A stretch of 64,000 nt of DNA from assembly GCA_018383815.1 (NCBI GenBank), contig JAHAWU010000001.1:1-64000 (forward strand), in the 5' to 3' direction. The translations under genes were made by a program, and so were the position numbers. Positions within the stretch are counted from its first letter, which is position 1; each line of letters starts with the position of its first letter. This DNA comes from Candidatus Jordarchaeia archaeon. GTDB lineage: Archaea > Asgardarchaeota > Jordiarchaeia > Jordiarchaeales > Jordiarchaeaceae. Below the pieces are notes generated by a model, which saw only the letters and a list, made by a program, of their open reading frames with translations, searched no databases and had not been told where the DNA came from. Positions 19,093 through 29,775 of the stretch are shown here, one piece after another.

Positions 19093-19851
19093 TCACGTCC
19101 TTGGGCGGCGAAGCCTAAAAATAATTCCTTCATAGGTTCTCAACTTTTCTGATAGTTCCAGTGTTGAGAGGAAGTTGATTACATTAGCAGTATAGTCTAA
19201 ACCGTTGGGAGGCCCCATACAACCCTCGCAGGGTAGCCCCACTTTGATACATTTTGCATCGCATCCTTCACGGGTCACCGGACCTAAACAGAGCACGTTT
19301 TCGTCGAGGAAACAGCTTGTGGGAAACTTTTGGGGTTGTAATTTGTCTACACGGATTGTTTTGAATTTTTCCAGTTTGGGCCTCAAATCGCAAACTGCAC
19401 AGAGATTTCTGTTTGTTTCGGGAAGATTTCTTCCCTCAATTAGTGAAAGTATAGATGCTCCCAGAACATTTTCAGGTGGAGGGCAACCCGGAATAGCTCC
19501 ATCGATTTCTATGATTTTAGAGAGGGGGTCCTTCCGAGCATTCTGTGATAGGCTCTCTATCCCTCCAAACATGGCACAGGCGCCGAGGGCAATTATTTTT
19601 TTGGATGCTTTTCGCAGCTTTTTCAGTAATATTTCTTCATCCTTCTGGGTAACACATCCCTCAACAAGGGTAACGTCAGAATATTCTAGTTCCTCTTCCT
19701 CCTTTATCGTGTAGGGGTAGGAGTCCTCAACAAAGGGGAAGTATACTATTTCCGCGGATTTTACAAGGTTGAGGAAAACATCTAGACAGGTAAGTGTGGA
19801 GATGCAGCCGTTGCACGAGTTAAGGGAGATTGCTGAAAATTTTAGTTTCAC
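19093..19851 (-). CDS. NiFe hydrogenase small subunit (MvhG-like)
   Basis: NSCNGCISTLTCLD, EGCVTQKDE, GACAMFGGI, GCPPPEN, GLPCEGCMGPP; 4-bp ATGA overlap with the upstream HdrA gene. Confidence 0.88.
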   Translation of the reverse strand: MKLKFSAISLNSCNGCISTLTCLDVFLNLVKSAEIVYFPFVEDSYPYTIKEEEELEYSDVTLVEGCVTQKDEEILLKKLRKASKKIIALGACAMFGGIESLSQNARKDPLSKIIEIDGAIPGCPPPENVLGASILSLIEGRNLPETNRNLCAVCDLRPKLEKFKTIRVDKLQPQKFPTSCFLDENVLCLGPVTREGCDAKCIKVGLPCEGCMGPPNGLDYTANVINFLSTLELSEKLRTYEGIIFRLRRPRT

Positions 19852-22394
19852 GTCATCATCTCCGATAATTTGTCATGCATTAGGTTCACTATCTCTGCGA
19901 ACCTGTAGCCTTCTACCGCGTTTAGCGATGATAGAACTAATCTATTCTCAATTTGGGGAATTCCCACTTCCTTAAGTATTTTGATTTTTTTCTCCAACTT
20001 GTTGATTCCATCTATGTATCTGCATGAGCCATATTTACAACCCACAATTAGTACCCCATCGAATCCTCTCTCCAACGCTTTTAAAATAAACTCGGTGTCC
20101 ACTCTACCAGTACAGGGAACCATTTCAACGAAAATATTGGGATGGTACTGTATTTTCCTTAGCCCCGCCTCATCCGCCGCTGCATACCCGCAATGCTCAC
20201 AGCAGAAAGCCATAATTTTGGGTTTGTGGCTATACTTGCTGTAAACTTCTATGGATCTGAGAATCTTTTCTCTTGTTATCACATTCATCTCTAACGCCTT
20301 TGTGGGGCAAATGCTTACACAGACCCCACAGCCCTTACACTTGAAATCATCAATGGTAATCTTGTCATCCTCACAGGATATAGCGTTAAAGGGGCAGACA
20401 GACATACACAAACCACATAAACCACACTTATCATAGTCAATATCAATACCTCTAATGTCCGCAAGTAAATAATCCCTTGATAATAGAGAGATTATTTGAA
20501 GAGCTACTTCATTAGATTCCGCTATAGCCGTGTGATAATCTTTAGGCCCAGTAACAGTCCCACACCCAAAAATCCCTGAGCTCAGTGTCTCCTTGGACAT
20601 AAAACCCTTATCATCAAAAGCGAAATCCAAGGTTTTGCGAAGCTCAGCCAGCTCCCTACTTGGAACCATACCAATGTTTAGAATAACCAGGTCCGATTCA
20701 AAGTCCCCCTTCTCAGTACTTATCACTTTCCTCCCAACCTCCACTTTTATCCCTAATACCTTACCAGTATGAACAGTTTCTGGCAGGTTAGCGAGCGCCA
20801 ACCTATTTGCGGCGCTTTTACTGTTCTCTATAAAAACTTTGACTTCGCAGTTAGGAAGCTTCTCCCGAATCGCATCTAGATACTTTCTGGAAAGTATGTA
20901 GCAGTAATCGGAACTAAGACTGTAATCGCCCACACCCTGAATAATTACAATTTTTTGTGGCGCCTTGCCATCGGAAAGTTTTACAAGATTGCCCTGTGTA
21001 GGTCCATCAGAAGCAAGAATTCTCTCAAACTCCGCAGAAGTGACAACGTCCCAACGCGGATTATGATTGTAAAGCTCCAAGTCTTGGTACAGATCAGAGC
21101 CGATTGCTAAAACCTTCGCCCCAACTTTTATGGTCATTGTTACAGGCTTCTGATCCAGATTTATGGCTTTATTCAGACAGGCTCTTTCACAGACCCGACA
21201 TTCTCTGCATTTCTCAATATCCTCCTCGTCTATGGTTGCCGCATAGGGATAGGCCTGAACAAAGGGAATGTAGATTAGCTTCCTCTCATCCAAACCGTAC
21301 TCATACTCGTTTTTCTTAGTAATAGTGCATATACTCATGCACCGTTTACAACCAGTACACTTATTTTCATCCACGTAGCGTGGCTTGCGAACCAGTTCGA
21401 TGGTGAAGTTTCCCACATTTCCAGAAACGGATAGAATTTCAGTATTGGTGAGAATCTCAATATTTTTCTCATGTACCAGATACAGAATCTGTTCCGAGAG
21501 GAAACAGGATGCACAGTCTAGGACGCCCTCAATCTTGCTCCACCTTGCAACTTTTCCCCCTAGAGTAGGCGACTTTTCAATAAGGTAAACTTTTAATCCG
21601 GCCTCCGCCAATTTTAAAGCCAGATTCATACCCGCAATGCCCCCACCAATAACAGCCACACTTTTTTGAACCTCCACAGTTTTGGTTTTAATCTCTCTTT
21701 GAAGGATAACCCTCTCCACAGCAGCCTCAATGAGTAACCCGGCCTTTTCCAGGGCTTCCACAGGCTTTTTAGAATTCACCCAGCATAATTGCTCCCTAAT
21801 ATTAGCAAAATCAATGTTTGTTAGGGGTATAAGATTCCCAAATATGCGGTTAAATATGTGAGAGTGCGTACGAGGACTGCAGGCGGCAATAACCACCTTA
21901 TTTATAAAATTGTCCTTAAACCATTTCTGAATCTTTTTCTGATTCTTCTCCTGACAAAGATTATCAAAAACCGCAACGGACACCACATTATTTATGCGGG
22001 ACACACGGTTCTTCAAAGCCTCCACACTAATTGACTGCTCAATCTCTGAGCCACAAGTACAGATAAGTATCCCCACGCGGCTCAACTCGGTTTTTCGGGA
22101 CTCAATTCTTTCTATCTCTTCACCTGAGAGAATCTTCTCATTTAACTCCATTATTTTGATGACCGTTTTTCCTTCTTCCGAAAGCTTGTAAGCTTTTCCC
22201 TCTTTGGTAATTAGGCTTCCCAACTTTGTGAGGTGAAAATTCAACTGCCCCGTTGTTTCAATGTTGAGCTCTTTGAGAAGATCTGAGTACTGCATGTAAC
22301 CCTCTTTTTCTAATAATAGGAGGATTTTTCTTCTGAGGGGGTGGCCTAAAACATTATATAAGTCCATCTGTGTCACCGCGTTGTATTTTTTCAC
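19848..22394 (-). CDS. Winged-helix DNA-binding domain / HdrA / MvhD triple fusion
   Basis: ArsR-like wHTH (residues about 1-90: LGHPLRRKILLLLEKEGYMQYSDLLKELN...), HdrA FAD domain (VIGGGIAGMNLALKLAEAGLKVYLIEK) with ferredoxin clusters, C-terminal MvhD-like domain (FCCEHCGYAAADEAG...PCTGRVD...GCKYGSCRY). Confidence 0.88.
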   Translation of the reverse strand: MKKYNAVTQMDLYNVLGHPLRRKILLLLEKEGYMQYSDLLKELNIETTGQLNFHLTKLGSLITKEGKAYKLSEEGKTVIKIMELNEKILSGEEIERIESRKTELSRVGILICTCGSEIEQSISVEALKNRVSRINNVVSVAVFDNLCQEKNQKKIQKWFKDNFINKVVIAACSPRTHSHIFNRIFGNLIPLTNIDFANIREQLCWVNSKKPVEALEKAGLLIEAAVERVILQREIKTKTVEVQKSVAVIGGGIAGMNLALKLAEAGLKVYLIEKSPTLGGKVARWSKIEGVLDCASCFLSEQILYLVHEKNIEILTNTEILSVSGNVGNFTIELVRKPRYVDENKCTGCKRCMSICTITKKNEYEYGLDERKLIYIPFVQAYPYAATIDEEDIEKCRECRVCERACLNKAINLDQKPVTMTIKVGAKVLAIGSDLYQDLELYNHNPRWDVVTSAEFERILASDGPTQGNLVKLSDGKAPQKIVIIQGVGDYSLSSDYCYILSRKYLDAIREKLPNCEVKVFIENSKSAANRLALANLPETVHTGKVLGIKVEVGRKVISTEKGDFESDLVILNIGMVPSRELAELRKTLDFAFDDKGFMSKETLSSGIFGCGTVTGPKDYHTAIAESNEVALQIISLLSRDYLLADIRGIDIDYDKCGLCGLCMSVCPFNAISCEDDKITIDDFKCKGCGVCVSICPTKALEMNVITREKILRSIEVYSKYSHKPKIMAFCCEHCGYAAADEAGLRKIQYHPNIFVEMVPCTGRVDTEFILKALERGFDGVLIVGCKYGSCRYIDGINKLEKKIKILKEVGIPQIENRLVLSSLNAVEGYRFAEIVNLMHDKLSEMMT

Positions 22395-22443
22395 CGATTT
22401 ATCAAGGAAAGTTTATTGGTTAATAAAAATTTTCGTAAATTAA

Positions 22444-22640
22444 AATTGACAACTATATTTGTCAAATACATCGTTCTTATTGTCTTAATATTTATTGTAA
22501 CTGGTTTAATAAACTTGACTTGCCAGACAATTATTGGAATAAAATTTAATTGTCAAGAAAAATTGGATTTTCCTCTTTTTATTCAAACTATACAACAATT
22601 TTCAAGACAATTAAAATTGTCATAGTTCAGAAAAGACAAG
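22444..22640. promoter_or_regulatory. Cluster of GACAATT/AATTGTC (TTGTC) inverted repeats between divergent genes; candidate operator array
   Basis: TTGACAA-6-TTGTCAA (22446-22465), GACAATT-15-AATTGTC (22526-22554), GACAATT-AA-AATTGTC (22606-22621), plus additional TTGTC/GACAA half-sites. Confidence 0.55.
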
Positions 22641-22708: not shown

Positions 22709-23353
22709 ATGGAAGAATTGGAAATTAGAAAATTGCGTAGGAAAACTCTCACGGTGGTATTGTATGAAGAGGGGAACTCCCAGGCTTCCAAACATTCCGA
22801 TTGCTTCAATGAACAAGATGGGAATCCCTTACTAAACGTTATTCTAACCTATCATCCCGACTTTATAACTGCAGACAAAGATTGCATGTTTGGCGTTAAC
22901 GGTCAAAGCGTGAATGTGGAGGAATTCAGAGAGGTAGGGGTTCCACTCTTCAGATTAGGAATACCTCAAAACGCCCGATTATATTTGGAACAGGAAATAG
23001 ATGACCTGAGAGAAAAAATAGAAGAATTAAAGGAAGAATTGGAGAGATTCCTCTCCGAGAACCCAAAAAATGCGAGCACCTACAAGGGACAAAACCTGAA
23101 ATCCCTGATAGAATTCTACGAGAAGGAAGCAGACGAAAAAGAGGAATACATGAATACTGTAATAACCGCTAGGTGGATAATAAAACAATTAATCGACCTA
23201 GCCAGCGAAGTGCCTGAAAAGGAAGTAACCTGTATACACATCACCCCCTCCAAACTATTCGACGAATTAGCACAACAAATGAGCGAGACAGACTTGGTAG
23301 TTCTGCCGATGAGAACGACCACCCACATGAAGCAAAATGAATTAGTACATTAA
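22709..23353 (+). CDS. Uncharacterized protein paralogous to the N-terminal domain of the next gene (possibly TraB-like)
   Basis: YHPDF..., GVPLFRLGIPQNARLYL..., VTARW-like pattern aligns with RPDF..., GIPYSYVDIADNARDYI..., REAW in the following ORF; ORF follows GGAGGAAGG. Confidence 0.65.
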   Translation: MEELEIRKLRRKTLTVVLYEEGNSQASKHSDCFNEQDGNPLLNVILTYHPDFITADKDCMFGVNGQSVNVEEFREVGVPLFRLGIPQNARLYLEQEIDDLREKIEELKEELERFLSENPKNASTYKGQNLKSLIEFYEKEADEKEEYMNTVITARWIIKQLIDLASEVPEKEVTCIHITPSKLFDELAQQMSETDLVVLPMRTTTHMKQNELVH

Positions 23354-23376: not shown

Positions 23377-25056
23377 ATGGAAGTTTTAGAATTAGAGCCA
23401 CTGAAGGGACAGAAACTAAGGATAGTTATGGTTGAAAGCGAACATGGAATTGACTGGTACCTACTAGAACCATCCAATTCCCCTAAAGACTTTTTCTCAG
23501 AACTAAGAATTATGTCCAAGGAGTACAGAGAATTCATAAACAAGATGGTTGAAGAGTATAGACCCGACTTTTGCCTTGAGGAGAGGGGAATGAGAAGTAT
23601 TGAAGAGTTTCTATATGACAATCCTTTGGTGGATGTTTTCAAAAAACATGGAATTCCCTACAGCTATGTGGACATTGCAGACAACGCCCGCGACTACATC
23701 TGGTCCACAATAAGCAGGCAACAGGAATTGAGAAACGCTCTAATTGAACAGATTACTAAAATTCTTGCCAAAAATCCTGAAGCAAGAAAGAATGATGAAA
23801 ACTTCCTAAAACTGGTTACTTGGGCTCAATACTTTGAGCAAAATTTGAAGGAAATTGAGGAGGACATAAAATTTAGGGTTCGCGAAGCATGGATGATGAG
23901 TGGCGTCCTAAACCAGGCAAGGGAAATCAAAAAGAAAAATGTCACCGCCATGCTTATATGTGACCCCCGCCATGCAGATGGAATATCCAAGCTGTGCACC
24001 GATCTAGATGTAGATTTAGTCACGGTTAAAGCAAAAAAGGAAATAAATAACAAGGAGGAAACCGCTGAGCTTTCCAGCCTCCTTGAATCTAGCCATGTTG
24101 AAATAATACCCATAGTTGTGAAGAAGAAGGAGCAGAGACAACACATATTATACTTCTTGGATACAGACCAGCATGCAAGCCCCTTTGACATGAACATGGC
24201 TTACGACGCTGGCTTCGACGTGGTCATTCCTCTGGGTGGAGTAAAGCCAGACGAGGCTCAAAGACTGGTACAAGACATAATATTCTCCCGAGGACCTAAA
24301 GGAGCAAAGTACACCGCAATCTTTGTCGGTGGAAGCAATGTAAATCAAGCCCAAGAAATATTTGAGAAAGCCGTTGAATCCTTGGTGCCACCCTTCGAAG
24401 TTCCAATAATTTTTGATCCAAGAGGAGCCTGCACCACCGCCTCAGCACTGGTAGCGAAGGCTGAAGAAGCCGTGATTACCCTTAATCTGGGCAATATTGA
24501 AAAAATGAAAGTTGCAGTTCTAGGGGGAACAGGGCCTGTAGGAAGATTCGCCTGCATACTGGCAGCAAAGCTAGGCTGCAAAGTATACATGGTGGAAACC
24601 TGGTCTGGTGCCAGTGAACAATATGTGAAAACTGTAGCCACGAATCTAAACGAAAAGTTCGGTGTGGAGATAGAAGGAGTTTTTGCCCCGAACAAGGAGC
24701 GAATGGAAATAGTACAGGATGCTGACATGGTATTCTCTGTGGCGAAGGCAGGTGTACAACTCCTCAGCAAAGAGGACGTAGAAGGTCTAAAACCGAAAAA
24801 ATTGCTCCTCGATGTCAACGCTGTCCCTCCCTTAGGAATAGGTGGACTTGACCGAAACGACGATAAAAAGGAGTTGAAACCCGGAGTTTACGGCGTTGGT
24901 TCATTGGCTATTGGTGCGCTAAAAAGGCAAGTCGAGGAAAATCTACTAAGAAAGGCTAAGGAAGTTAAAGGAAAAGCGGTCTTCGACCATCTGGCCGCAT
25001 TTGAAACTGCAAGGGAAATTCTTCTCGAAAAACCAGTCATCTCCAAGGCTGCGTGA
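23377..25056 (+). CDS. Fusion of an uncharacterized (possibly TraB-like) domain with an MtdB-like methylene-tetrahydromethanopterin dehydrogenase
   Basis: C-terminal about 310 aa: ILYFLDTDQHASPFDMNMAYDAGFDVVIPLGGV, FVGGSNV, AVLGGTGPVGRFACILAAKLG, NAVPPLGIGGLD, YGVGSLAIGALK, matching MtdB organisation. Confidence 0.8.
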   Translation: MEVLELEPLKGQKLRIVMVESEHGIDWYLLEPSNSPKDFFSELRIMSKEYREFINKMVEEYRPDFCLEERGMRSIEEFLYDNPLVDVFKKHGIPYSYVDIADNARDYIWSTISRQQELRNALIEQITKILAKNPEARKNDENFLKLVTWAQYFEQNLKEIEEDIKFRVREAWMMSGVLNQAREIKKKNVTAMLICDPRHADGISKLCTDLDVDLVTVKAKKEINNKEETAELSSLLESSHVEIIPIVVKKKEQRQHILYFLDTDQHASPFDMNMAYDAGFDVVIPLGGVKPDEAQRLVQDIIFSRGPKGAKYTAIFVGGSNVNQAQEIFEKAVESLVPPFEVPIIFDPRGACTTASALVAKAEEAVITLNLGNIEKMKVAVLGGTGPVGRFACILAAKLGCKVYMVETWSGASEQYVKTVATNLNEKFGVEIEGVFAPNKERMEIVQDADMVFSVAKAGVQLLSKEDVEGLKPKKLLLDVNAVPPLGIGGLDRNDDKKELKPGVYGVGSLAIGALKRQVEENLLRKAKEVKGKAVFDHLAAFETAREILLEKPVISKAA

Positions 25057-28936: not shown

Positions 28937-29251
28937 GTGAAATGTTCGGAATTTAAAGTCACCACTCTCAGGTTGCCTGAAGAAACAATCAAGGTGCTTG
29001 AAGAACTTGCAAAAATGTTTGGAAGGGAGAAATCAGACATTATGAGGGAAGCATTGCAGGTAGGTATTCGGGAGATGAAAATACGATTAGCCCCAGATTT
29101 ATACTCTGAGGGCAAGATTTCTTTTGGGAAAATGAGTGAGCTTACGGGTTTAAGTTACAGAGAGCTTTCTTTGGAGCTAAAACGGAGAAACGTTCCTCTC
29201 CGATATGGGGAAGAAAGGTTCAGTGAAGAAGTTAAGCAGCTGGTAGATTAG
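28937..29251 (+). CDS. UPF0175/RHH-type antitoxin
   Basis: TTLRLPEETIKVLEELAKMFGREKSDIMREAL plus UPF0175-like GKISFGKMSELTGLSYREL; abuts the downstream PIN-like toxin. Confidence 0.8.
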   Translation: MKCSEFKVTTLRLPEETIKVLEELAKMFGREKSDIMREALQVGIREMKIRLAPDLYSEGKISFGKMSELTGLSYRELSLELKRRNVPLRYGEERFSEEVKQLVD

Positions 29252-29775
29252 TTGATAGCGGTTTCAAATGCTGGACCTCTTATATGGCTAGGGAAATGCG
29301 ATCTTTTACATTTATTGAGGCAACTATACTTCAAAATAGCCATTCCGGAATCAGTCCACAAAGAAGCAGTGATAATCGGACTTGAAAAAGGCTACCAGAA
29401 CGCTCAAATAATTAAGAAAGCCCTCAATGAAGGGTGTATAAAAGTTTACAGGGGGGAGAAAAATTCAAAGAAAAAGTGGAAGCAGTGGAGAAAAAAATTG
29501 GTACCGAGTTAGGTTTAGGAGAACGCGAGGCTCTATCTTTGGCCTTGGAGGAAAATACTCCAATTTTACTTACCAATGATGAAGACGCATATCTTGTGGG
29601 AAAAATATTAGGCTTGGATCCTAAGGGCGTCATCTATGTGCTTTTAAAGGGCGTAAAGCAAAACCACCTAACCAAGAAAAAAGCGAAAAAAGCTTTAAAC
29701 CAGATGCTTCAAGAAGGATTCTGGCTCTCACCAATAATTGTTCACAAATTTTATGAAACACTAGACCTGCTTTAA
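29252..29775 (+). pseudogene. DUF3368/PIN-like toxin, split by a frameshift
   Basis: ORF 29252..29512 (IAVSNAGPLIWLGKCDLL) continues in a second frame in 29434..29775 (ELGLGEREALSLALEENTPILLTNDEDA); junction at GGGGGGAGAAAAATTC near 29452-29465. Confidence 0.75.

Follow-up and report, generated by a model that had tools for sequence, protein, structure and literature searches.

Several described systems resemble parts of the locus analysed here. The MvhADG-HdrABC and Vhu complexes (PDB 5odc, 8rvu) contain homologs of its components in MvhA, MvhG, MvhD and HdrA, and HdrA2, or type Ia HdrA (the HdrA-MvhD protein of Methanosarcina), shares with it an HdrA core followed by a C-terminal MvhD domain. 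In the methanogen complex, HdrA forms an obligate dimer in which Cys197 is supplied by the partner subunit, and electrons reach HdrBC via a cluster in the thioredoxin-reductase (TrxR) domain (PMC9012536). A survey of HdrA distinguished 28 classes, and an N-terminal winged helix-turn-helix (wHTH) domain is not described among them (PMC12054007). Loki- and Thorarchaeota have been reported to encode duplicated HdrA as well as HdrA fused to MvhD, without a helix-turn-helix fusion. HdrR of Methanosarcina barkeri is a helix-turn-helix regulator of an hdr operon, but it is a separate protein, unfused to HdrA (PMC11218639). The original prediction for this DNA, that a wHTH domain is covalently joined to HdrA, allowed that such a fusion might already have been characterised; no description of one was found in the open-access literature.

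The window (the whole stretch that was analysed, 64,000 nucleotides of contig JAHAWU010000001.1 of a Candidatus Jordarchaeia archaeon) carries the predicted continuous ORF of 848 aa, which had been given without a strand and lies on the minus strand, uninterrupted from a GTG at 22394 to 19848 in the ORF listing. An ATG at 22367 is the likelier start, because GGTGA is found just upstream and the homolog of Ca. Jordarchaeum madagascariense (85% identical) begins with an ATG at the matching position. From this ATG, the CDS (19848–22367, minus strand) specifies 839 aa, with an N-terminal winged-helix domain at residues 1–77 (22137–22367, minus strand; predicted recognition helix 39–52), identified by Pfam, AF2 and fold matches. 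It is followed by an HdrA core at residues 97–708 (20244–22079, minus strand), made up of the N-terminal Fe-S, FAD, and inserted and C-terminal ferredoxin domains, and by an MvhD/FlpD domain with conserved Cys at residues 718–837 (19857–20216, minus strand). The combination of an ArsR-like wHTH, HdrA and MvhD in one ORF was borne out by the domain search and by the fold matches described below. On the 848-aa ORF, Pfam detected the wHTH-type family DUF7347 (residues 11–81, E 2e-11), Fer4 domains, a FAD domain and FlpD/MvhD (residues 727–846, E 8.1e-33), and the HdrA of solved structures aligned to residues 102–717 (E 3.5e-113). Also present, as predicted, are downstream genes for the [NiFe]-hydrogenase small subunit (MvhG/VhuG-like; 19851–19093, minus strand), which has a 4-nt overlap with the fusion gene, and large subunit (MvhA-like; 19086–17764, minus strand), with intact L1 (RICGLC) and L2 (DPCVSC) motifs.

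A survey of 227 Asgard genomes recovered the wHTH-HdrA-MvhD architecture in about 55, spread over seven families; beyond Asgard, coverage was limited to a scan of genome contigs for close relatives, which returned a single Asgard locus. The fusion proteins are clearly distinct from other Asgard HdrA, most of which show similarity only beyond about residue 100, and 42 aligned fusion homologs form a group apart from the other HdrA proteins of this genome (FastTree, support 0.995). The homologs are mutually related, so counts taken over them are not independent. Where contigs extend far enough, nearly every neighbourhood examined keeps the gene order fusion-small-large. An assembly chimera or a chance reading frame might be suspected in an assembly as fragmented as this one (234 contigs), but such an origin can practically be dismissed: the independent assembly of Ca. 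Jordarchaeum has the same fusion, start and gene order as well as both of the palindromes described below, and with about 55 genomes sharing the architecture, the candidate assembly join was rejected. The fusion is a real gene.

The N-terminus of the fusion protein is predicted to be a winged-helix fold. Among 17 representative homologs, Pfam matched DUF7347 in all 17, HTH_24 in nine and HTH_20 in eight, and a profile of the domain matches the ArsR-like structure 1y0u at 5e-6. An AlphaFold model of residues 1–106 from two sequences was poor (pLDDT 53); for the trimmed residues 1–79, the best of five models reached a pLDDT of 88 and the other four 45–68. The order of elements in the trimmed model, helix-strand-helix-recognition helix-wing-helix, is that of a wHTH domain. 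Its best folds are of the MarR/ArsR/HxlR/RosR type (Foldseek E about 3e-3), and comparison with known structures matched MarR, YodB, QsrR, RosR and CadC at VIA Z 11–12. The domain was found in 42/42 aligned homologs, with a mean conservation of 0.76 (0.71 for the whole protein), on a par with the HdrA core. Conservation is particularly high in the putative recognition helix, where residues G40, N43, F44 and H45 are nearly invariant. A second wHTH-enzyme fusion occurs elsewhere in this genome (L122:5460-7760, G000 contig C160), where a 766-aa ORF combines a DUF7347 winged helix with an ATP-cone and NrdD, the anaerobic ribonucleotide reductase.

In the HdrA and MvhD portions, the Cys residues of the N-terminal Fe-S domain, of both ferredoxin domains and of MvhD are conserved across the 42 homologs, those of the HdrA domains also in the alignment to solved HdrA, and the equivalent of Cys197 is likewise conserved in the fusion homologs. 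A Lys and a Glu that stabilise FAD have been discussed in connection with bifurcation (PMC12054007); the K409 equivalent is present in 42/42 homologs, and the E356 equivalent in 40/42 and 42/42 at two candidate columns. The ligands of the TrxR-domain cluster, read from the alignment to solved HdrA, are lost in 35/42 homologs, all four Cys being kept in 7/42, and the window's own protein has one of the four. The further prediction that HdrB and HdrC genes are lacking held for the window and for its 74-kb contig, on which a profile search detected no HdrB-type CCG domain, but did not hold genome-wide, as 63 CCG matches occur elsewhere in this genome, which separately encodes a canonical HdrA-MvhD-MvhG-VhuA set next to HdrB. 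In this canonical set (locus L123, G000 contig C104), HdrB and possibly HdrC lie nearby, and the large subunit lacks the L2 motif, a VhuU-type split being likely. Two HdrA paralogs (L013 and L016) have in-frame TGA codons that probably specify selenocysteine. The best NCBIfam match of the fusion is HdrA2 over residues 106–846 (583 bits, below the curated cut-off of 1100), and it differs from HdrA2 in its added N-terminal wHTH, the absence of hdrBC and the loss of most TrxR-domain ligands. Relative to MvhADG-HdrABC and Vhu, HdrA, MvhD and wHTH form one polypeptide, HdrBC is missing, and the large subunit is mostly without its C-terminal extension.

The closest solved structures to the hydrogenase subunits are MvhG for the small and MvhA for the large subunit (group 3c Mvh), although the score of the latter against NCBIfam VhuA (188 bits) is below the curated cut-off of 800. 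The NiFe ligands of L1 and L2 and the Fe-S ligands of the small subunit are kept. Of 39 fusion-linked large subunits, 28 have no C-terminal extension, the last His of the L2 motif being their terminal residue, and the window's own retains a 7-residue tail beyond it; the extension is missing in the H2-sensing groups 2b/2d, but also in groups 4c, 4e and 4g. A second, canonical large subunit was found in 18/21 fusion carriers checked, and a canonical one is still present in four genomes without the fusion; in two carriers (G120 and G153) the fusion-linked [NiFe] large subunit is the only one found. Like the H2 sensors of groups 2b/2d (HoxBC/HupUV), the complex is mostly an accessory beside another hydrogenase, with a large subunit that usually lacks the extension, but among solved structures this subunit is nearest to group 3c Mvh, and the output would be direct DNA binding rather than a histidine kinase. 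By the features tested, the fusion and its partners are neither a member of group 2b/2d nor a standard HdrA2.

Divergently from the fusion operon lie two genes, here called mtdN (22709–23353, plus strand; 214 aa), for which no Pfam family scored above cut-off, and mtdC (23377–25056, plus strand; 559 aa), in which residues 269–348 match the N domain of methylene-H4MPT dehydrogenase. The mtdN-mtdC pair, divergent or nearby, is common in fusion neighbourhoods, and mtdC is present in 22/23 fusion carriers and 7/22 non-carriers (p 7e-6 without phylogenetic correction). Judged by eye, the arrangement at 28937–29775 resembles a frameshifted toxin-antitoxin pair: a small DNA-binding-like ORF and, after it, PIN-like ORFs that occupy two overlapping frames. 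That mtdC co-occurs so strongly with the fusion favours the main rival to a transcription-factor reading, in which the fusion complex is a trigger enzyme: chiefly a metabolic oxidoreductase linked to H2, ferredoxin or F420 that works with MtdNC and whose wHTH provides only feedback on its own operon. PutA offers a parallel, as a trigger enzyme that exerts feedback control in proline use. The conserved NiFe, Fe-S and FAD ligands, an FrhB-like first gene in some of the operons and the two genomes with no other large subunit are also in keeping with such a role, but nearly all carriers have a canonical hydrogenase to which the complex is an accessory, the route to HdrBC is lost in most homologs and the operon is without hdrBC, and the missing C-terminal extension is sensor-like; on balance, we consider a trigger enzyme rather unlikely.

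The promoter of the fusion operon contains a 16-bp palindrome, GAYAA-N6-TTRTC, which is described here as new. Its strict form, GACAA-N6-TTGTC, occurs exactly twice in the 3.79-Mb genome, and both of these operator-like sites lie in the 314-bp divergent promoter, one proximal to the fusion operon (22448–22463) and the other proximal to mtdN (22606–22621). Thirteen bp downstream of the former is a candidate BRE/TATA element, GAAAATTTTTATTAA (22420–22434, minus strand), identical in Ca. Jordarchaeum, to which we infer a promoter role. Both palindromes are retained in Ca. Jordarchaeum, where the spacers are altered and the surrounding blocks well conserved. The divergent promoter also has a third, wide inverted repeat of 29 bp (GACAAT...ATTGTC, 22526–22554), half of which is kept in Ca. 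Jordarchaeum.

Across the 42 loci, a search of up to 350 bp upstream for GAYAA-N{s}-TTRTC gave 32 sites in 27 loci at s=6, compared with 0.14 expected, and 0–2 sites at each other spacing. When operons led by frhB are counted, 33/42 homologous operons have an exact site in their promoters, and 38/42 do so if one mismatch is allowed. Neighbourhood sequence totalling 555 kb contains 60 such sites, 35 of them within 400 bp before the fusion gene. In five operons (L068, L069, L073, L082 and L086) an FrhB/FdhB-like gene stands first, ahead of the fusion gene, and there the palindrome pair has shifted in front of frhB, so that the site again lies about 90 bp before the first gene of the operon. In four carrier genomes, mtdN copies located apart from the fusion operon are also preceded by the strict site, and a search of 95 kb surrounding the loci of canonical hydrogenases and HdrA paralogs found no site. 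L092, L093, L094 and L097, four homologs whose recognition helices differ, lack the palindrome upstream, and its absence in two genomes (G077 and G078) is uninformative because both also lack mtdC. No wider regulon is claimed, since the degenerate pattern has 11 matches genome-wide compared with 20 for a reversed control pattern, and the nine sites outside the divergent promoter lie mostly inside ORFs. The Ca. Jordarchaeum assembly has two extra strict sites, left uncounted, whose neighbours are a proteasome cluster and a sugar epimerase gene; at L143:4054 the palindrome is 99 bp before the proteasome/exosome gene cluster.

The spacing-specific enrichment, the way in which the site follows the first gene of the operon and mtdN, and its absence at the canonical loci together make it most likely that some factor controls the fusion operon and mtdNC via the palindrome. 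Among the conserved neighbours of the fusion operon, no stand-alone regulator recurs, and the only DNA-binding domain consistently linked to the palindrome-bearing operon is the fusion's own wHTH. wHTH domains can also serve in protein contacts, and it might be supposed that the domain is a structural or docking module that does not bind DNA, and that an unlinked regulator uses the palindromes. The L092–L094 group, which keeps the wHTH without the palindrome, would fit such a role, but elsewhere the palindrome tracks the fusion operon across families, avoids the canonical hydrogenase and HdrA loci and, in its strict form, is confined in this genome to this operon's promoter; with no other DNA-binding gene recurring beside the operon, and a putative recognition helix that is so well conserved, a docking module appears improbable. 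The same palindrome, with its conserved spacing of six and its restricted strict form, much strengthens the predicted role of the fusion as a DNA-binding regulator.

We therefore return to the transcription-factor reading, which we lean towards: the fusion may well be an autoregulatory, hydrogen- or redox-responsive transcription factor with a hydrogenase-HdrA complex as its chassis. The conservation of FAD, Fe-S and NiFe ligands would suit direct redox sensing. Against this reading stand the 7-residue tail of the window's own large subunit and the four homologs that lack the palindrome, and the mtdC co-occurrence and frhB would equally suit a metabolic enzyme. More tentatively, the hydrogenase might itself be the transcription factor, with H2 oxidation at the NiFe centre altering the flavin redox state of HdrA in the same complex and so switching DNA binding with no kinase relay. 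In the main reading, electrons from H2 would enter via the NiFe hydrogenase and the [2Fe-2S] centre of MvhD, with ferredoxin or F420 as the electron source instead in some lineages, and the NiFe hydrogenase, MvhD [2Fe-2S] and HdrA ferredoxin domains would set the state of the HdrA flavin, which in turn would change DNA binding or activation. If HdrA forms a dimer, as it does in methanogens, two winged helices would be presented to one palindrome, binding the 16-bp site in the promoters of the fusion operon and of mtdNC. The site, 13 bp upstream of the BRE/TATA-like element, would activate rather than repress. Such a protein would have in common with one-component regulators of the ArsR/MarR/HxlR type (RosR, QsrR, YodB) the wHTH fold and a palindrome beside its own promoter, but would differ from them in its effector part, a flavo-Fe-S electron hub of 760 residues that partners hydrogenase subunits; by analogy, it would act as a regulatory hydrogenase and a one-component regulator combined.

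H2-based syntrophy is considered the way of life of many Asgard archaea, and we found no account of how they sense hydrogen. With a putative DNA-binding head and a candidate operator in hand, a short DNA probe is enough for a direct test of Asgard hydrogen sensing. If the proposed role is true, these archaea would possess a hydrogen sensor that needs no kinase relay, and the recruitment of an electron-bifurcation module as a gene switch would represent a new architecture for the redox control of transcription.
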